From: Dichotomocladium elegans
Lineage: Eukaryota; Mucoromycota; Mucoromycetes; Mucorales; Lichtheimiaceae
Assembly (NCBI GenBank): GCA_025716815.1
Contig: JAIXMN010000001.1
Location: forward strand, 2,108,001 to 2,172,000
DNA length: 64,000 nucleotides
Direction: 5' to 3'
The number at the start of each line of letters is the position of its first letter. Within the stretch, counting starts at the first letter, position 1. Positions 42,248 through 61,186 of this stretch are shown here, piece after piece. Both the position numbers and the translations under genes were made by a program. Below the pieces are notes generated by a model. The model did not search any database. It saw only the letters and a list, made by a program, of their open reading frames with translations, and was not told the DNA's origin.

Positions 42248-43399
42248 TACTCTCCACCACCGGCATAGGCCAAAGGTTGGCACGGCAAAATGAAGGCACG
42301 TTGACATTAGAAACGCGCATCAGATGAAAAAGGAAGCAAGTCGATCCATTATCAGATAGAGAGAGAATACAGGCTAAATGATTCCCGTGTATGAGTCCTG
42401 GGATCCCTTGATACACGCTCAACTTGGCTTTAGTGGATCTTGCAAAAGATCCATTCCATTTTCAGAGATATACCCATCATCCCCCAACTAATGCAAGAGA
42501 TAAACAATGAAGGGAAAGGAACTTTTTCCAGTTCCGGACTTGTTCTCCACCCCCCACCCACCCACACTCCCGCCATGTGGCTCTGGTTCACCTGGGATGT
42601 GGCTCCGATAACTGATGCGGGAAAAAGTGTCAAAAATTCCCCATGTGAACAGCCTTGACCGGAGGGCCTTATCCGACTACGGTAGTAGGCCGCGGTCCCC
42701 TTCTCGGCTTCGCGCAGTTCTGAGCATCAGCATTGCTTTGTCAAATCTTGCGGGTGGAGGGAAACCACTGCTCAGATACCTACATCGCAGGGCGGGGCGC
42801 TATTCTAGGGAAAGCGCGTACATTGACGTTATCTTCAAAAGACAAGGTTTCGATCAGCAAAGTGTCCTATACTTTCCATTCCGGGTGAATATCTATCGAC
42901 TGAGGATTTCTCAACTTTATTGTTCACGGGATGTGAAAATAACTTGGCGGTAGGAGTACGTCGCCCATGAAGGTGAGTCGGGTGCCAAGAGAACGTCATT
43001 TACTTTTTGAAATTGTTGGATTCACTTTCTTGATTTCGACACGATCCAACTTGTGAGTAGTCAAATGTCGAAATCGGGCGCAGCGGTGGTGATCGTTTGT
43101 TTGGATAACCACCAAGCTTGAAGCGGACCATGTATCCTCGGATATATCCATATCAAGAGGTCTGCGAGAAGCATAGGATACAATTCGCATTGGAGACCAT
43201 AAATTTGCCCAGAAATGACCGTGAGTTGAGGTAACAGCTTGATCTGTATACATCATCTTATCTTCCTTAAGGCAACGGTAGTTAAGTACGAACAAATGGA
43301 CGGCCAGTATTAGGCAGTGGATGATGCACCTAAGGCTGGGGATGTACATATTTCTATATACGTCGAGCCTTGGGGATAGCGATGTGCTCATCTTCCATC

Positions 43400-43550
43400 C
43401 TACTCGTCTCGAACTCAATCCAATAGGATCTTGGAAAGCGAGACACGAGGATGATCCGAACCAGTGAAGTATCGAATCGCCTAACGCTGAGTAATTTGAA
43501 GGTTTCGTTTCTCATTCTTATCGATATTTATCCAACTGTGAAGCGTTTTT
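43400..43550 (+). pseudogene. Tc1/mariner-like transposase, C-terminal remnant
   Basis: Reading frames contain ELNPI and, after an internal deletion and stops, a FEGFVSHSYRYLSNC-like ending. This matches the order of the better copy at 46670-46895 (ELNSIEQF, then FEEFVSHPFRCLASC). At DNA level the two share GAACTCAAT, TGGAAAGCGAGACAC-like and TCTCATTC-like segments. The piece is short and broken, and has no function of its own. Confidence 0.5.
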
Positions 43551-46599: not shown

Positions 46600-46900
46600 C
46601 AAGTGATGATAAAGTGAATGCCACATGCACGACGAAAGATGTCACACAACGAAGCTTCCTCTCTAAATGCATTGAGTTCTCGAGGATATCGATGCGCCTA
46701 TTTTCTATCCTATCTGCCTGAACTCAATTCTATTGAGCAGTTTGGGTTGATTGTGAAGAGCAAAGTAAAACGTAATAGGTTCTTGAGGAGTGAGACACCA
46801 ATGACCCTAATCAATGAAACATCGAATGACTTAAAGTTGAGCGATTTCGAGGAATTCGTCTCTCATCCTTTCAGGTGTCTAGCTAGCTGTCGTTATGGGG
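46600..46900 (+). pseudogene. Tc1/mariner-like DDE transposase, C-terminal remnant
   Basis: The frame at 46618-46935 reads SRGYRCAYF, then YLPELNSIEQFGLIVKSKV and KRNRFLRSETPMTLI, ending LSDFEEFVSHPFRC. This is the third-acidic-residue (E of IEQF) segment and tail of a Tc1/mariner/IS630-like transposase; the normal block is PYSPELNPIEQFW. The upstream catalytic Asp blocks are not readable in one frame, and the motif has drifted (LPELNS for SPELNP), so the copy is dead. Confidence 0.65.
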
Positions 46901-47754
46901 AAAACAATTATTCGACTAGGGATAATTCTACATAGACCATCATGGTATGTATATGGATATGAATATGTTAAGAAAGAGAGGGAAAAGGGTGAATATGAGA
47001 AGATATCGTATCCCCGACCTCTTTGGGTATGTTGAAAGATTGTTGAGATATAAAGAGCATTACTTTTATATGCGATGATGCAATATTAGATCGGACCTCA
47101 GATAAAACGAAGAAATACAGTGTATAATTACGACATACGGATGGTCACTTACCTGATTGTATAGAACAACTCATCAGCGAAACAGATGATAAAGAGCTTT
47201 GTCATGTAAGTTCTTTTTGGAGTGTATGTTTGTCTATAATTGATAACAAATGTATAGTTATACACATGTTCATTGAAATGAGACAAAACTTTGATGCAGT
47301 AGTGGCTTTAATATGCAGCACGTGGCGCACAACAAGACAGACTCTCTTTGCTACCTCATAATCAGACAACGTCACTTCGTCTATCACATTCTGATAAATC
47401 GGATTACCCCTGATGCAATGCTTTGCAGCTGAGTCATCACCTGTGTTTATGTTAACCATAATGAAAAAATCGAAGGGCCCGATTAGACTTGTCTGCAACA
47501 AACTGTGATATAAACAAAAAGCATGTGAAATAGCAGAGATGAGAGTCGTAGATGTAAGTTTTCTGAAGGAGGATATCATCTGATAAGTCATGACTGATCT
47601 CTTATAAATAATAGAGGTTCTGAGCGAACTATTTTATCTTTATCAAATCCTTCCTTATGCTCTTTTCCATGAGTTATCGGTATAAATCTTTATATCGACT
47701 TGTTTGTTATTCGGATCAGACACCTTCTGTCCTTTCTCGATCGACCAACTGTAC

Positions 47755-48210: not shown

Positions 48211-48257
48211 AAAATAAAATCGTGTTCACGTGTCACAAACAAATCGTTTATTTTTAC

Positions 48258-48345
48258 TTAGTTGATGCTCGCAATAAGATTGTTTTCTACATGATTTGTT
48301 GCACTTTTTTGGAGTGGAATAACCCCCGCCTAATTTTCAGATGTT
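48258..48345 (+). repeat. Outer inverted repeat arm, left
   Basis: It begins ACTTAGTTGATGCTCGCAAT and is matched by the reverse complement of 53073-53161 with only a few differences. The match stops sharply at the outer edge. Confidence 0.85.
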
Positions 48346-48386
48346 CAAACGATAATCCGGGCTATTCTAGACTATCCTAGACTGTA
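48346..48386. repeat. Outer decamer remnant, left
   Basis: It contains about two and a half units of the AGACTATCCT type next to the outer arm, ending where the 290 bp insertion begins. Confidence 0.75.
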
Positions 48387-48674
48387 ACAGTACAGGCACT
48401 GTTGTGCGAGTACTTACAAAGAGCGTCTGATATACAGCGTGGAGGAAGAGCGAACGCGACGAGAAGAACGATGATTATAATAATACAACGTGGGGATGCC
48501 CGAACATCACAGCGCATCCTTGTTTATATAATAAACAGTAGCGGGGTAAACAGTGGTATACATATAGGATCATCGTACAGAGAAAGTGAGTGTGGTGCAT
48601 AATATCGTCGCCGGAGATGCGGTCTTGATCGTGATCGTTATCCTTGTAGTATCTTGGTCGTCGGTCGATAGATC
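48387..48674. other. 290 bp segment inserted into the left decamer tract
   Basis: Present only on the left half of the palindrome and bounded on both sides by decamer sequence. It starts GTAACAGTACAGGCACTGTT, which contains a short inverted repeat (ACAGT...ACTGT). It has no ORF and no obvious terminal repeats. Confidence 0.6.
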
Positions 48675-48712
48675 CTAGACTATCCTAGGCTATCCTAGAC
48701 TATCCTAGACTT
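48675..48712. repeat. Decamer tract 3' of the left PD-(D/E)XK-like gene
   Basis: About four units of AGACTATCCT/AGGCTATCCT, 45 bp beyond the stop of the left gene. The equivalent position right of the other gene (53043-53067) has two to three units. Confidence 0.85.
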
Positions 48713-48757
48713 ATCATAAACTAAAAAACCATGCAGTCCATTACAATTATTTATTCA

Positions 48758-50278
48758 TCAATTGTGGTAAAGTTGGATATGACAGGATCTCTTGCGGTTC
48801 TTGGACTGGGAAAATAGCTGTTGGATATTTGCCATTGGCAAGGTTGGGGCACAGCGATGCTTGATGGTCTCCGGGTGTGCTGCACGAACACAGACGCGTT
48901 CAAAGATGTCCAAAACTTTGAGAATATCAGGAACCTTGTAAACCAAACCAGGCAACTCGTTGATGCTGTCTGGGACCTTGATAGTTGCGAGAGGAATCAT
49001 GGTATAAATGCTTTGGGCGGGTAACGTCAGAAGATAAAACACAACAGTTCGTCCAATGATTTGTACGGCCAGAATTCCTTCAAACAACTGATTGTCGAGA
49101 GCGTCCTTGCAAACCCTGGCTACCTTGATCAGATCCTTGCAAATAATAAAGTGATCGTCGCTGTACATGGCAGATTTGGCTTCACCATAGGCCAGGGTGG
49201 TTGCCCATTTGACGCCTAAAGACTTGGTTACACTCAGGTCTGGCCGGGAACTTGATACTTCCTTATACTTGGCCTCGAAGGTGGTTTCGTCCAGCCAGCG
49301 CAAGTAGATACTATTGTCTGGATCATCAAATAAACCGGCCAAAAAAGGATCAATGAAGCGAGAGCAAAGCTCCATCTCGTTCACGTTTTCTTCGATAGTC
49401 ACAAGAGGTAACTTTGAAACCAAGTTGCCGATCGCTTTGGCAATTTTCTTTTCCATGGTAGGTAGAGCCAGAGATTTAAAGCTGATCTCAGCTTCATCCC
49501 GGCCAATCTTTTTGTTAATAAACCGATCAAGGATGCTACTGAATTGTGTGGCCGTCGCGAGAGGGATGGGTTGACGCTTGATACCGTATGCTTGCTGGAT
49601 ATACTCGTCGATCATACGCCACTGATCATAATCAAAATATGGTTTCACCTCTTCCGGGTATTTATTTCCATCAAGAAGCAGCACTGAGGTGGATGATAGT
49701 ATCAATAGCAGATTGTCTTCTAATGAGAGCTTCCATTTGTTTGCTTTGAGCGACATCTTCATATTGTGAAATCCTGCTGACACATCAAGGTTGTTGATCA
49801 CCAAATGCTCGCCCAACGGCTGATCAAGGTTTATCCCATCGAAGCAAATGGCTTCATCAGACTGTCGTTTTTGTCCCGTCGTGCTTGACCCTGAGATGGA
49901 TTGGTTGACGTCCACTGATGCGCCTAGCAGTGTGCTGCTGCTGCTACTTTGATCGTGCTCACGCTGCTGGTTAGGGAGATGCTCATGATGGCTACCCTCA
50001 AAATGCGCTCTCATAGCACTCAGTTCAGCGCAATGATGCTGGCAAATTGGGCAACCAAAATGGATTGTAACAGCCAGATTTGAAGAAGTGGAGGAATCAC
50101 TGAGGTATAGATACGAGTCATTATTACGCAATCGTGCCTTGGTAATGCGGCTAGGAAAATCGAACTCGTGTGCCTGTGCAAGATGGCGTCGAAGGTTTTG
50201 TGATGTTCTGAAATTTGACTGACAGTCATCGCTCATAAAGCAGCGGTGAGCGATAAACACGGGAGTTGGTTGAGACAT
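48758..50278 (-). CDS. C2H2 protein with PD-(D/E)XK nuclease-like motif, left copy
   Basis: An intronless 506-aa protein. Two zinc fingers lie at the N-terminus: Cys13-x5-Cys19-x12-His32-x4-His37 and Cys76-x2-Cys79-x12-His92-x4-His97. After a Ser/Gln linker comes a globular domain with CSRFIDPFLAGLFDDPD, then SSRPDLSV (Asp347) followed 18 residues later by YGEAKSA (Glu366, Lys368). This D...E-x-K arrangement with the PD pair is the signature of PD-(D/E)XK nucleases, though no search was possible. The end (FSQSKNRKRSCHIQ) is basic. Related uncharacterised proteins are, from memory, abundant in Mucoromycota. It differs from the right copy at residue 46 (Thr/Ser) and 302 (Met/Thr) only. The ORF extends upstream without an ATG, so I used the first Met. 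Confidence 0.8.
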   Translation of the reverse strand: MSQPTPVFIAHRCFMSDDCQSNFRTSQNLRRHLAQAHEFDFPSRITKARLRNNDSYLYLSDSSTSSNLAVTIHFGCPICQHHCAELSAMRAHFEGSHHEHLPNQQREHDQSSSSSTLLGASVDVNQSISGSSTTGQKRQSDEAICFDGINLDQPLGEHLVINNLDVSAGFHNMKMSLKANKWKLSLEDNLLLILSSTSVLLLDGNKYPEEVKPYFDYDQWRMIDEYIQQAYGIKRQPIPLATATQFSSILDRFINKKIGRDEAEISFKSLALPTMEKKIAKAIGNLVSKLPLVTIEENVNEMELCSRFIDPFLAGLFDDPDNSIYLRWLDETTFEAKYKEVSSSRPDLSVTKSLGVKWATTLAYGEAKSAMYSDDHFIICKDLIKVARVCKDALDNQLFEGILAVQIIGRTVVFYLLTLPAQSIYTMIPLATIKVPDSINELPGLVYKVPDILKVLDIFERVCVRAAHPETIKHRCAPTLPMANIQQLFSQSKNRKRSCHIQLYHN

Positions 50279-50344
50279 GTAAAAAGTGGGAGAAAAATGA
50301 AAAAAAGTGGGAAGGTGTAGGCTGCAGATTGGGCACAACCAGAG

Positions 50345-50391
50345 AGGATAGTCTAGGATAGTCTAGGATAACCTAGGATAACCTAGACTAT
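50345..50391. repeat. Decamer tract 5' of the left PD-(D/E)XK-like gene
   Basis: About four full units (AGACTATCCT and AGGTTATCCT read on the minus strand) directly upstream of the gene arm. It sits where the 62-unit array sits on the other side. Confidence 0.9.
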
Positions 50392-50790
50392 CTGTGGTGT
50401 TTTCGTTGTTTTTTATGGTGGACAGTTAGAATACGATGAGACTCGTGGATGTCTTTTATTCGAATGAAATCGGAATTAAGATCCTCCATCGCTACACATT
50501 TATCTACTATTTATATGATTTATGGCAGAGGTCCTAATTAGGTCAACTGGCTACTCCGTCTTACACGGGTACTCGGAGATGGTAGCACTATTACAGATAA
50601 GGTGCTTATGTGTGTATCGGTGACCTCTATCATACGTTATATGTCCTTGTTCCTTTCAGACCATCCTCACGTCGGTAAAACCTCATAAAAACCCAGTGGG
50701 AGAAAAATAGAGGGAAAAAGACTGTGGAAATGGATCTGGTTATAAAGCGGCGTCATGGATCCTTCAATCCGTAATCACCTATGCGACACT
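50392..50790. promoter_or_regulatory. Unique centre of the palindrome, divergent promoter candidate
   Basis: The only sizeable single-copy segment between the two outward genes. Together with the decamer arrays it must contain both promoters. It has no ORF and no clear TATA element at the expected distance. Confidence 0.45.
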
Positions 50791-51410
50791 AGGTTATCCT
50801 AGGTTATCCTAGGTTATCCTAGACTATCCTAGACTATCCTAGACTATCCTAGACTATCCTAGGTTATCCTAGACTATCCTAGACTATCCTAGACTATCCT
50901 AGGTTATCCTAGACTATCCTAGGTTATCCTAGGTTATCCTAGACTATCCTAGACTATCCTAGACTATCCTAGACTATCCTAGGTTACCCTAGACTATCCT
51001 AGACTATCCTAGACTATCCTAGGCTATCCTAGACTATCCTAGGTTATCCTAGACTATCCTAGACTATCCTAGACTATCCTAGACTATCCTAGACTATCCT
51101 AGACTATCCTAGACTATCCTAGACTATCCTAGACTATCCTAGACTATCCTAGACTATCCTAGACTATCCTAGACTATCCTAGACTATCCTAGACTATCCT
51201 AGACTATCCTAGACTATCCTAGACTATCCTAGACTATCCTAGGTTATCCTAGACTATCCTAGACTATCCTAGGTTATCCTAGACTATCCTAGACTATCCT
51301 AGACTATCCTAGACTATCCTAGGTTATCCTAGGTTATCCTAGACTATCCTAGACTATCCTAGACTATCCTAGGTTATCCTAGGTTATCCTAGGTTATCCT
51401 AGGCTATCCT
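50791..51410. repeat. 62-copy 10-bp tandem array
   Basis: Exactly 620 bases in 62 decamers with no insertion or deletion. The units are mostly AGACTATCCT and AGGTTATCCT, with two AGGCTATCCT (51021, 51401) and one AGGTTACCCT (50981). Neighbouring units create CCTAGG or CCTAGA, so CTAG recurs every 10 bp, about one DNA helical turn. The array ends 66 bp before the right gene's ATG. Confidence 0.97.
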
Positions 51411-51476
51411 CTCTGATTGTGCCCAATCTGCAGCCTACACCTTCCCACTTTTTTTCGTTTTTCTCCCACTTTTTAC

Positions 51477-52997
51477 ATGTCTCAACCAACTCCCGTGTTT
51501 ATCGCTCACCGCTGCTTTATGAGCGATGACTGTCAGTCAAATTTCAGAACATCACAAAACCTTCGACGCCACCTTGCACAGGCACACGAGTTTGATTTTC
51601 CTAGCCGCATTTCCAAGGCACGATTGCGTAATAATGATTCGTATCTATACCTCAGTGATTCCTCCACTTCTTCAAATCTGGCTGTTACAATCCATTTTGG
51701 TTGCCCAATTTGCCAGCATCATTGCGCTGAACTGAGTGCTATGAGAGCGCATTTTGAGGGTAGCCATCATGAGCATCTCCCTAACCAGCAGCGTGAGCAC
51801 GATCAAAGTAGCAGCAGCAGCACACTGCTAGGCGCATCAGTGGACGTCAACCAATCCATCTCAGGGTCAAGCACGACGGGACAAAAACGACAGTCTGATG
51901 AAGCCATTTGCTTCGATGGGATAAACCTTGATCAGCCGTTGGGCGAGCATTTGGTGATCAACAACCTTGATGTGTCAGCAGGATTTCACAATATGAAGAT
52001 GTCGCTCAAAGCAAACAAATGGAAGCTCTCATTAGAAGACAATCTGCTATTGATACTATCATCCACCTCAGTGCTGCTTCTTGATGGAAATAAATACCCG
52101 GAAGAGGTGAAACCATATTTTGATTATGATCAGTGGCGTATGATCGACGAGTATATCCAGCAAGCATACGGTATCAAGCGTCAACCCATCCCTCTCGCGA
52201 CGGCCACACAATTCAGTAGCATCCTTGATCGGTTTATTAACAAAAAGATTGGCCGGGATGAAGCTGAGATCAGCTTTAAATCTCTGGCTCTACCTACCAT
52301 GGAAAAGAAAATTGCCAAAGCGATCGGCAACTTGGTTTCAAAGTTACCTCTTGTGACTATCGAAGAAAACGTGAACGAGACGGAGCTTTGCTCTCGCTTC
52401 ATTGATCCTTTTTTGGCCGGTTTATTTGATGATCCAGACAATAGTATCTACTTGCGCTGGCTGGACGAAACCACCTTCGAGGCCAAGTATAAGGAAGTAT
52501 CAAGTTCCCGGCCAGACCTGAGTGTAACCAAGTCTTTAGGCGTCAAATGGGCAACCACCCTGGCCTATGGTGAAGCCAAATCTGCCATGTACAGCGACGA
52601 TCACTTTATTATTTGCAAGGATCTGATCAAGGTAGCCAGGGTTTGCAAGGATGCTCTCGACAATCAGTTGTTTGAAGGAATTCTGGCCGTACAAATCATT
52701 GGACGAACTGTTGTGTTTTATCTTCTGACGTTACCCGCCCAAAGCATTTATACCATGATTCCTCTCGCAACTATCAAGGTCCCAGACAGCATCAACGAGT
52801 TGCCTGGTTTGGTTTACAAGGTTCCTGATATTCTCAAAGTTTTGGACATCTTTGAACGCGTCTGTGTTCGTGCAGCACACCCGGAGACCATCAAGCATCG
52901 CTGTGCCCCAACCTTGCCAATGGCAAATATCCAACAGCTATTTTCCCAGTCCAAGAACCGCAAGAGGTCCTGTCATATCCAACTTTACCACAATTGA
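51477..52997 (+). CDS. C2H2 protein with PD-(D/E)XK nuclease-like motif, right copy
   Basis: An intact 506-aa ORF with the same domains as the left copy: two C2H2 fingers (Cys13/Cys19/His32/His37 and Cys76/Cys79/His92/His97), the Asp347 and Glu366-x-Lys368 motif, and a basic C-terminus. Only residues 46 (Ser) and 302 (Thr) differ. Both copies keep all metal-binding and motif residues, so either selection or a very recent duplication or conversion preserved them. The codon before the TTG that opens the frame is a stop, so the Met at 51477 is the first usable start. The upstream flank is the 62-unit decamer array. Confidence 0.8.
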   Translation: MSQPTPVFIAHRCFMSDDCQSNFRTSQNLRRHLAQAHEFDFPSRISKARLRNNDSYLYLSDSSTSSNLAVTIHFGCPICQHHCAELSAMRAHFEGSHHEHLPNQQREHDQSSSSSTLLGASVDVNQSISGSSTTGQKRQSDEAICFDGINLDQPLGEHLVINNLDVSAGFHNMKMSLKANKWKLSLEDNLLLILSSTSVLLLDGNKYPEEVKPYFDYDQWRMIDEYIQQAYGIKRQPIPLATATQFSSILDRFINKKIGRDEAEISFKSLALPTMEKKIAKAIGNLVSKLPLVTIEENVNETELCSRFIDPFLAGLFDDPDNSIYLRWLDETTFEAKYKEVSSSRPDLSVTKSLGVKWATTLAYGEAKSAMYSDDHFIICKDLIKVARVCKDALDNQLFEGILAVQIIGRTVVFYLLTLPAQSIYTMIPLATIKVPDSINELPGLVYKVPDILKVLDIFERVCVRAAHPETIKHRCAPTLPMANIQQLFSQSKNRKRSCHIQLYHN

Positions 52998-53042
52998 TGA
53001 ATAAATAATTGTAATGGACTGCATGGTTTTTTAGTTTATGAT

Positions 53043-53067
53043 AAGTCTAGGATAGTCTAGGATAGCC
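53043..53067. repeat. Decamer tract 3' of the right gene
   Basis: Two to three decamers in inverted orientation relative to the main array, about 45 bp beyond the stop and next to the outer arm. Confidence 0.85.
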
Positions 53068-53072
53068 TGCAT

Positions 53073-53161
53073 TATCTGAAAGTTAGGCGGGGGGTTATTC
53101 TACTCCAAACAAGTGCAACAAATCATGTAGAAAACTATCTTATTGCGAGCATCAACTAAGA
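53073..53161 (-). repeat. Outer inverted repeat arm, right
   Basis: Reverse complement of 48258-48345 with a handful of substitutions and single-base indels. It ends at CATCAACTAAG; the flanks beyond differ. Confidence 0.85.
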
Positions 53162-53338
53162 GGAGTGTTATCCTTTGTAAATTGATTCGGTATAAAGTGG
53201 TCATTATACGTAGGAATATCTTTTTTTTTGCTCTTCACGTTTTATAACTTTTCTTTGTTGAGACATTTGTCAAAATATTTAACAGAATGAGAAAACAAAG
53301 CCATGGAAGTCATTTAGATATAAACTATCACACGCTTC

Positions 53339-53434
53339 ACCGATAGCACCGCAGGCACCGATTAGCACCGCGGGCACCGATAGCACCGCAGGCACCGATA
53401 GCACCGCAGGCACCGATAGCACCGCAGGCACTGA
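53339..53434. repeat. 18-bp minisatellite
   Basis: About five copies of a GCACCGATAGCACCGCAG-type unit; one copy has an extra T and a G change. It lies at the 3' end of the transposase pseudogene and makes its open frame end in a Gly-Ala-Cys-Gly-Ala-Ile repeat that is not part of the enzyme. Confidence 0.9.
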
Positions 53435-54190
53435 TTCTAGTCATTAGTGTCTCTTCTTCGAGAAACTTATTTCGTTTCATTTTACTTTTGACAATTGACC
53501 AGAACTGCTCAATTGGATTCAGTTCGGGAGAGTATGGAGGAAAATATACGAATCGTGATATACTTACCAATATCAGTTGAATTGTGAATAGGAGCATTAT
53601 CCATGACAAGGAAGTGTTCCATCATTTCTGGATACCTGTCCATTTCGTCGAGAGTAGCTTTTACAAAGATTAGATAATGGCCTGTCACTGTCCCTGTGCA
53701 ATAACCATCAGTCGCACGTCCAAGCTTTCTCTTTTGATACGTTTTGGAACTCTCAAGCTAACATTAATTAAGCGAGTTGCGGATATTGCACCTAAAATTG
53801 AAGTTGCGTTTGCCTTCGTTATAGGTACTGTAACTATCAAGCCAATTCCGTTTCAAATAAATGTGAATGGCTGATTCGTCAAGAAAAACACAATTTGTTG
53901 TGAAATCCAGGTCAGTTTGCTACCACTTTTGAACCCAATCGTACCTTTGGTGGAATTTTTCCTCGCTGTTTCTCTCCATAGGATGGAATTGTACCTGCTT
54001 AATAGATAGATTACACTGTTATCATGAAGTTGTGAACAGTCCTACGAGAAACGTTTTCAAAGTTTTGTTCCAAACTTTCTGCCACTTCACTAACCAGGGC
54101 AGAAGGACTCCCATCAATGTAATTTAAAAGAAATGCTTTATGTTTTTCCCCAAGAATACGACCTCGACCAAGCTAAACCGGTGCCAGGAA
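53430..54190 (-). pseudogene. Tc1/mariner-like (IS630 superfamily) DDE transposase, decayed
   Basis: All three catalytic blocks can be read on the minus strand in order, but in different frames with stops between: TNCVFLDESAIHIYL (first Asp), EHFLVMDNAPIHNST (second Asp), and YFPPYSPELNPIEQFWSIVK (Glu). Upstream, around 54000-54180, ILGEKHKAFLLNYIDGSPSA and FENVSRRTVHNFM resemble the helix-turn-helix DNA-binding part. A frameshift separates the second and third blocks. It is the most complete copy of the family in the window. The 3' end has been replaced by the 18-bp minisatellite. Confidence 0.75.
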
Positions 54191-59991: not shown

Positions 59992-61186
59992 TCATTGCGC
60001 ATGTGCTCTCTTTGGCTTGGCAGGAGGAGGGAAGATCGGCGGTGCGAATGGTTGCTAGGAAAACATATAAGTGACATGTGCGCGGGAAAAATGGATGAGA
60101 AAGAGCTCATCTTACAATGAAATGGACGTTCAAGTCGCCGTTGATTACGAGTCCCCAGGAGTTCTTCTCGTCCTTGATCGCTTGGCGATAGGCTTCCATG
60201 GCAAGCGGCGGGAAGAAGCGAGCATTGAGCAAGTCATCTTCGTCTTCCTCTTGATATTGCTTTGGCGGGAAGATTCGTCGGAAGCGCTCGCATGCTTCCT
60301 GAATCGGGAACTGCCAAGACGTGGGCACTCGAACAAAGGATGCAAGCCAAGCACGTCTTTCTTGGTAGGCGGCCTTCTTTTCGTCCGCAGCTTGCACAGC
60401 TTCTTCAAAGCTGTTGACCACCAGCTGATGGTCGTATCCGGTGAAGATCTTGGTGGTGCAGAGAGAGAGACAGTGCACCATGTTGCCAACGAGAGAGGCC
60501 GCCATAGTTCGGCGCGGAGCCTTGGTAATGTTCTGAGCGATCTCGGAGGGATCATCGATGCCATTAATTCTGAGGTACTCGGCATGCTCCCGTCGGACAT
60601 AGGGGTCATAGTAGTCGGGGCAGAGGAGGATTTGCTTGAAGCTTCCGACGCGGCGGGGCAGGCTGGTAAGGAATCGAGTACCGTTCTGGCAGTGCTCTGT
60701 CAGGCATGAGCGCACTGGCACTCGAACAAACGACGCAAACCAAGCATGGATTCTTTGATGGGCGGCCTTCTTTTCGTCCGCAGCTTGCACGGCGTTGTCA
60801 AAGCTGTTGACAACCCGTCGATGTTGGTAACCAGTGAAGATCTTGGTGGTGCCGAGAGACAGCCAGCGCACCATGCCGCCAACAAGAGAAGATGCCACAG
60901 TTCGGCGCGGAGCCTTGACAATGGTCTGAGCGGCCTCTGCGGGCTCGTCGATGCCATTAATTCTGAGGTATGCGGCGTGCTCCCGTCGGACATAGGGGTC
61001 ATAGTAGTCGGGGCAGAAGAGAATCTGCTTGAAGATGCCAACGCGGCGTGTCAAACTGCCAAGAAGGCGGACGCCGTTCTGGCACTGCTCAGTTACATGG
61101 GAAGATACAGTTGATGTCACAGACGCGACTGTGGGGAGGCCTGTTGCGACCACCGTGCTCTTGAAAAAGTGGATAAATGTGTTCAT
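59992..61186 (-). CDS. Unidentified 377-aa protein with a tandem internal duplication
   Basis: Exon 1 (61186-60116) and exon 2 (60054-59992) join in phase 0 across a GT-AG intron to 377 aa. Two units of about 130 residues follow each other, each with QNGxRxLxSLxRRVGxFKQIL, CPDYYDPYVRREHAxYLRINGID, APRRT, TTKIFTGY and NAVQAADEKKAA or EEAVQAADEKKAA, ending in SFVRVP. By eye they are about three-quarters identical, and DNA similarity is also clear, so the duplication is fairly recent. The second unit is followed by an acidic stretch (EEDEDDLLNARFFPP) and a Pro/Lys tail from exon 2. A hydrophobic stretch is absent except near the N-terminus. I know no family for this. Confidence 0.75.

Follow-up and report, generated by a model that had tools for sequence, protein, structure and literature searches.

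A palindromic pair of zinc-finger, PD-(D/E)XK-like genes in Dichotomocladium elegans as the probable relic of a foldback-type Tc1/mariner-like transposon

In the excerpts of two papers (PMC4079207, PMC3573991), foldback transposons are described as having long inverted arms with internal tandem arrays, unequal repeat numbers, and sequence held in the loop. According to the same excerpts, most foldbacks belong to the Mutator superfamily and Galileo to the P superfamily, and the repeats of Galileo are reported to hold extra transposase-binding sites. An excerpt of a further paper (PMC3627910) describes TA-flanked mariner elements that carry either an endonuclease gene (GIY-YIG or EcoRII-like) or Fanzor1. 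Here, we describe a palindromic locus in a 64,000-nucleotide stretch of the Dichotomocladium elegans genome (the window), where two nearly identical genes, each encoding two C2H2 zinc fingers and a PD-(D/E)XK-like domain, lie between arrays of a 10-bp unit. We believe that this feature is most probably a decayed, internally palindromised, foldback-type Tc1/mariner-like DNA transposon with a nuclease-like cargo. As far as these excerpts go, foldback arms with tandem repeats and nuclease-carrying mariner elements are already known, separately. A combination of the two in which the arms hold the transposase, the arrays are private, and the cargo is of the C2H2, PD-(D/E)XK-like kind is not named in the titles and abstract openings of the literature searched.

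We confirmed that the palindrome is real and placed its parts as listed in Table 1. The inner arms (48687-50386 and 51369-53068) are 1,700 nt each and 99% complementary. All three pairs of inverted repeats of at least 60 nt reported for the window fall within this locus, and a search with the right outer arm matched the two outer arms only. The two open reading frames (ORFs) differ at seven codons, two of them non-synonymous, giving a dN (non-synonymous substitutions per site) of 0.0017 and a dS (synonymous) of 0.0152 from these seven changes only. The mirror-image 506-codon genes and the matching outer arms of the original prediction were thereby borne out.

The window has 69 matches to the decamer TATCCTAGRY, whereas 100 shuffled versions average 0.28. 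Its exact dimer has 63 matches in the 39.4-Mb assembly, and all 63 are at this locus; the exact-dimer search found no decamer array elsewhere in the genome, with or without the gene, and no empty decamer site that could serve as a homing target was found in this assembly. That the same unit brackets each gene had been predicted and held true, with the correction that the decamers on the two sides of each gene are inverted relative to each other. Homing to decamer arrays, predicted at the same time, was not supported; no other such array was found in the genome.

What look like spacers in the palindrome are fragments of high-copy repeats that sit within the decamer arrays and break the symmetry. 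The left insert (48383-48666) has at least 41 matches including its own, with 40 of 166 candidates scored, and its best other copy is 97% identical. In seven other copies inspected, the start was established for six, which all share the starting end of the insert, and all seven run beyond base 284, where the insert stops. The central piece (50393-50788) is a solo long terminal repeat (LTR), likewise with at least 41 matches including its own (40 of 235 candidates scored). Seven of its other copies were inspected; among them are a full element at C57 that has the same LTRs and is flanked by a 5-bp target duplication (GCAAC), and a solo LTR flanked by the duplication AAGCT. The LTR in the window lacks a target-site duplication, since its two flanks differ (CTATC and CTAGG). 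Immediately to its left, at a CTAG, the decamers switch orientation. Because both inserts and this switch fall in decamer sequence, we infer that they are traces of break repair in the arrays.

The original prediction held that no transposase of a known class was present. This is refuted at the locus by a decayed Tc1-like transposase region near the right outer arm (53219-54172) and by two further fragments (Table 1). The region is 78% identical at the nucleotide level to the transposase copy of a paralogous locus, L003; tblastn recovers it in pieces with stops, and the single frame tried holds 20 stops. The nearer of the two fragments (46681-46902) is 74% identical to it over 129 nt. We call the window copy a relic rather than a complete Tc1/mariner element. 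Since no terminal repeats are recognizable there, we assign it to this transposon group by its transposase remnant, its array layout, and its paralogues. The decayed transposase is split at 53338-53435 by 5.4 copies of an 18-bp minisatellite unit (CACCGATAGCACCGCAGG).

The plan of the element can be read from C31, an intact-looking copy elsewhere in the genome. Its arms are 1,926 nt long with one mismatch, and each holds an open transposase ORF. The ends read TA-CAGTGCTTCC...GGAAGCACTG-TA, with TA followed by CAGTG at both ends, and 23-bp arrays lie just inside the arms in inverted orientation around a cargo different from the nuclease gene. The transposase matches the profiles DDE_3 (6.7e-30) and HTH_23 (2.2e-5) and has DD34E spacing, counted by eye. 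C31 thus combines the DDE transposase and helix-turn-helix of Tc1/mariner elements with TA-flanked terminal inverted repeats. Each end of a related element at C68 carries a terminal repeat and transposase, and a 2.2-copy repeat comes after the left transposase (1,751 bases read). Since C31, with another cargo, also has inverted private arrays, the array appears to be part of the transposon plan and not of the nuclease alone.

Two loci share this plan with the nuclease-like gene as cargo. L003, a full-length paralogue (45% identity to the window protein), is flanked by inverted arrays of a different 10-bp unit (AAAGAGAGGT; 10 and 5 copies), and its arms consist of transposase of the same family in inverted orientation (819 bp, 98.5%). 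At C43, the homologue is not a single open frame and sits between inverted 15-bp arrays within 1,195-bp arms (98.6%). Both terminal inverted repeats were found there, at C43:190910 and in inverted orientation near C43:198270 (96.5% over 114 bp). The transposases next to the window, L003, and C43 genes all have stops or frame breaks. Long inverted arms with internal tandem repeats, the foldback hallmark, are present in C31, L003, and C43. In 213.6 kb of sequence, largely chosen for its transposon content, inverted pairs of same-unit arrays 0.8 to 4 kb apart occurred only at these three loci and the window. Exact dimers of the four tested units were found at their own locus only (63/63 for the window, 3/3 for L003, 15/15 for C31, and 7/7 for C43); all four tested elements therefore have locus-private units. 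Inverted pairing also extends to the transposases themselves. Among 117 merged copies, the best-scoring of a larger set, 10 neighbor pairs lie within 10 kb, with 3.4 expected in any orientation, and all 10 are inverted: 7 convergent (L003 and C43 among them), 3 divergent, and none tandem.

Two further loci are recorded here. At L075 (C68:917880-918791), a transposase with no stop in its two aligned segments directly precedes about 13 copies of a 34-bp unit and then another ORF, and the flank examined holds no nuclease-family match. At C35:1584764-1588028, a seamless 3.3-kb palindrome (97.9%) holds a transposase and a different C2H2 ORF without arrays.

We surveyed 15 homologue loci in this genome, the window included, judging features within limited flanks. 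Short-unit arrays flank the gene on both sides at L003 and C43, and on one side at C35/L007, C52, and, weakly, C2. A check set by the original prediction, that homologues elsewhere would be flanked by a short unit of their own, was thus answered positively, on both sides of the gene at L003 and C43 and on one side at the others just named. Its opposite was found in part, in that 9 of the 15 loci, mostly broken or distant, have no such array in their flanks. Transposase occurs in the flanks of six (window, L003, C43, C41, C57, and C60), and at C2, a terminal repeat of a different subtype (91% over 57 bp) is found no more than 0.5 kb from the homologue. Several of the other family copies are broken or diverged.

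The protein has the zinc fingers and the PD-(D/E)XK-like motif that had been predicted from the sequence. The two C2H2 fingers score below the curated Pfam cutoff (zf-C2H2_2, 1.3e-4), and the fingers vary among family members, as judged by eye. Numbered from after the first methionine, the putative catalytic residues are conserved in 29 aligned family proteins: E365 in 29/29, K367 in 28/29, and D346 in 26/29, the exceptions being N, G, and one gap. (Of 33 proteins, this alignment omits P0013, which is the same gene as L003, P0024, P0030, P0031, and P0033; P0001, the window's own, is also omitted.) A predicted structure of residues 150-505 has a predicted local distance difference test score (pLDDT) of 82.8 and a predicted template modeling score (pTM) of 0.86. 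Its core is predicted to run alpha-beta-beta-beta-alpha-beta, with D346 and E365 on adjacent strands and K367 just after, where the pLDDT is about 52-67. Structural comparison with VIA-align returned rows including DrdV, Hjc, AgeI, Cas4, Dna2, and AddAB; several PD-(D/E)XK enzymes are among them at modest Z (DrdV, 7.3), amid unrelated rows and below the caution line of the tool. Foldseek alone gave no significant match for the model, nor did a search of PDB chain sequences with the protein. The data support a putative nuclease fold of the PD...ExK domain, and we read the protein as a probable PD-(D/E)XK nuclease, given the low pLDDT of the core, the modest Z values amid unrelated rows, and the nonsignificant Foldseek result. 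Six family members (P0002, P0003, P0005, P0008, P0014, and P0016) are annotated as starting at the same methionine, without zinc fingers, which may be an effect of gene prediction or real.

The family spreads across Mucorales and Umbelopsis, and several divergent paralogues coexist within each of Zychaea, Radiomyces, and Hesseltinella. Across its final 205 residues, the window protein is identical to that of Zychaea at 194 and to that of Mucor circinelloides, encoded on a 5.58-Mb contig, at 189 (92-95%). Our control gene, the window neighbor Dbp5, reaches at best 79% in Zychaea and 76% in Mucor. Mucor and D. elegans belong to different families, Mucoraceae and Lichtheimiaceae. The closest Hesseltinella copy (159/199) is also above its own Dbp5 (71%), and the gene tree does not follow genera, with several nodes weakly supported. 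For P0025, a relative from Rhizopus arrhizus, identity is 93% across 31% of the query and 147/183 over the shared stretch including a diverged tail; this sequence is on a 1-kb contig that may be contamination. P0025 and P0023 (Mucor) share near-identical stretches with the same change beside the active site. The sequence comparisons suggest horizontal transfer of the gene among Mucorales, and we word this as a suggestion because Dbp5 was the only control. Between the window and L003 genes, identities at the three codon positions are 0.53, 0.69, and 0.35, with dS saturated, a pattern that shows constraint on the protein at the level of codon comparison.

Several observations weigh against our interpretation. 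Transposases are abundant in this genome (2,572 candidates, 98 scored), and nearness alone is therefore weak evidence. Merging same-strand transposase pieces within 1.5 kb before pairing could have masked tandem copies lying close together. The left transposase fragment, some 1.35 kb away from the arm, may have nothing to do with the element. Neither known type of terminal repeat was matched near the palindrome, so the window locus has no recognizable ends; none was found in the flanks examined at L003, and at C43, the outermost nucleotides of the right repeat are changed. The right-hand transposase copies of L003 and C43 are 5'-truncated. Eight of the 15 homologue loci have neither transposase nor terminal repeat in their flanks, and C2 has the terminal repeat only. 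The case for transfer is thin with a single control gene, identity is lower in other relatives, and the R. microsporus copy (137/205) falls below its own Dbp5 (76%), as expected of an older paralogue.

Table 1. Features of the palindromic locus and of the transposase sequences around it (window coordinates)
Feature	Position	Strand	Remarks
Tc1-like transposase fragment	43251..43406	+	tblastn with C31 transposase: 36%, E 2.9e-5, 2 stops
Tc1-like transposase fragment, left of palindrome, convergent with right copy	46681..46902	+	tblastn 49%, E 2.6e-18
Left outer arm	48257..48327	+	71 nt, 96% complementary to 53090-53160
Two decamers, forward, first with one mismatch	48363..48382	+	
High-copy repeat piece, truncated terminal fragment (left insert)	48383..48666	+	284 bp, no target-site duplication
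Decamers, forward, 3' side of left gene	48671..48712	+	
Left C2H2 x2 + PD-(D/E)XK-like gene	48758..50278	-	ORF, 506 codons
Four decamers, reverse, 5' side of left gene	50345..50386	-	
Solo LTR, palindrome center	50393..50788	+	396 bp, TG...CA, no target-site duplication
Decamer array, ~62 copies, forward, 5' side of right gene	50789..51410	+	
Right C2H2 x2 + PD-(D/E)XK-like gene	51477..52997	+	ORF, 506 codons
Two decamers, reverse, 3' side of right gene	53045..53066	-	
Right outer arm	53090..53160	-	71 nt, 96% complementary to 48257-48327
Decayed 5'-truncated Tc1-like transposase region	53219..54172	-	begins 58 bp from right outer arm; stops, frame breaks

Elsewhere in the window, the ORF at 60107-61186 contains an internal direct duplication of 393 bp (82% alike) and a hint of a deaminase family below the cutoff.

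In the model that we favor, elements of this kind have TA-flanked, CAGT-type ends, long inverted arms holding the transposase gene, private arrays, and a cargo in the loop, which at three loci, the window included, is the gene encoding the paired C2H2 fingers and the PD-(D/E)XK-like domain. The arrays adjoin the 3' ends of the transposase genes on the inner side and therefore face each other in inverted orientation. Judging from the anatomy of C31 and, nearly so, of C43, the transposase would mobilize the entire element through cut-and-paste transposition at TA. The junctions suggest that inverted arms and arrays are prone to break and fold back, so that arms are copied in inverted orientation, and that at the window, two gene copies were fused head to head through the decamer array and a captured LTR. 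The nuclease would be an accessory cargo, retained by selection after the local transposase died, and would most likely cut DNA such that repair or copying favors the element. The mobile system of the original prediction is supported; its self-contained two-gene element is not. A foldback plan is found here in the Tc1-like elements of a mucoralean fungus, with transposase in both arms and a private array in each tested element. The identity pattern suggests that such genes have moved between families of Mucorales. A protein-only nuclease as transposon cargo would parallel Fanzor cargo, which is RNA guided.

Of the other explanations, the one that survives best is that the zinc-finger nuclease recognizes and cuts the array flanking its own gene and that repair of the break copies or spreads the gene, which comes near to the original prediction, set within a transposon. 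The genes at the window, L003, and C43 do lie between inverted arrays whose exact dimers were found nowhere else, the inversion junction and both captured repeat fragments, which lack target-site duplications, are in decamer sequence, and the fingers differ among family members. However, C31 carries the same kind of inverted private arrays around another cargo, at L075, an array follows a transposase without any nuclease-family match in the flank examined, a decamer array without the gene was not found in the genome, and arrays can be fragile without a dedicated nuclease. We consider this explanation rather unlikely, and we retain it because the arrays are private and the repair scars lie in decamers. 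An extended version, in which nuclease and array would be a co-diversifying pair, each element growing a private minisatellite and its zinc-finger nuclease recognizing that array only, in a protein-only lock-and-key selfish system on a Tc1-like transposon passed between Mucorales, is unlikely. If it were true, breaks, copying, and palindrome formation would be confined to the element, which would itself stay apart from its relatives. The private arrays offer a direct way to ask whether transposon nucleases and repeats diversify together.

It is quite unlikely that the gene is a host gene, such as a fungal nuclease for genome defense, lying by chance in transposon debris. Both ORFs are intact beside a dead transposase, the codon-position pattern indicates constraint, and the family is found across Mucorales and Umbelopsis, all of which would fit a host function. 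Against this stand the broken or diverged copies in this genome, the divergent paralogues in the three other genera, a tree that does not follow genera, identities to Zychaea and Mucor above those of Dbp5, and a C43 copy located between transposon ends. A coincidence of a gene, a minisatellite, a chance inverted duplication, and unrelated transposon fragments nearby is very improbable: transposase fragments are common, 8 of the 15 homologue loci have neither transposase nor a terminal repeat in their flanks, and chance breakage can yield palindromes, but L003 and C43 repeat the nested layout although their units are unrelated, and in the 213.6 kb scanned, only C31 had a further inverted pair of arrays. 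Palindromes are a known artefact of hairpin or chimeric long reads, but an assembly artefact appears extremely unlikely here because substitutions separate the two arms (about 1%), the left one alone holds the 284-bp insert, and different sequence is joined on each side.

Taken together, the locus resembles several known systems in part. Homing endonuclease genes are similar in that a nuclease-like gene lies amid a possible target sequence, but no empty target site was found in this genome, and the gene is transposon cargo where the anatomy is readable (C43). PD-(D/E)XK nucleases share the order E...PD...ExK on a predicted alpha-beta-beta-beta-alpha-beta core, with D346, E365, and K367 near-constant. 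As far as the excerpts cited above describe them, Drosophila FB, Galileo, and Tetris have the same inverted arms, internal tandem arrays with unequal repeat numbers, and other sequence in the loop, whereas the elements described here have a Tc1-like transposase located inside both arms, TA sites, and private, unrelated units in the four tested. The mariner elements with a nuclease gene or Fanzor1, described to the same extent, likewise join a mariner transposase to a nuclease-type gene between TA sites; the elements described here differ in their family of two C2H2 fingers with a PD-(D/E)XK-like domain, their fungal host, and their inverted array architecture.

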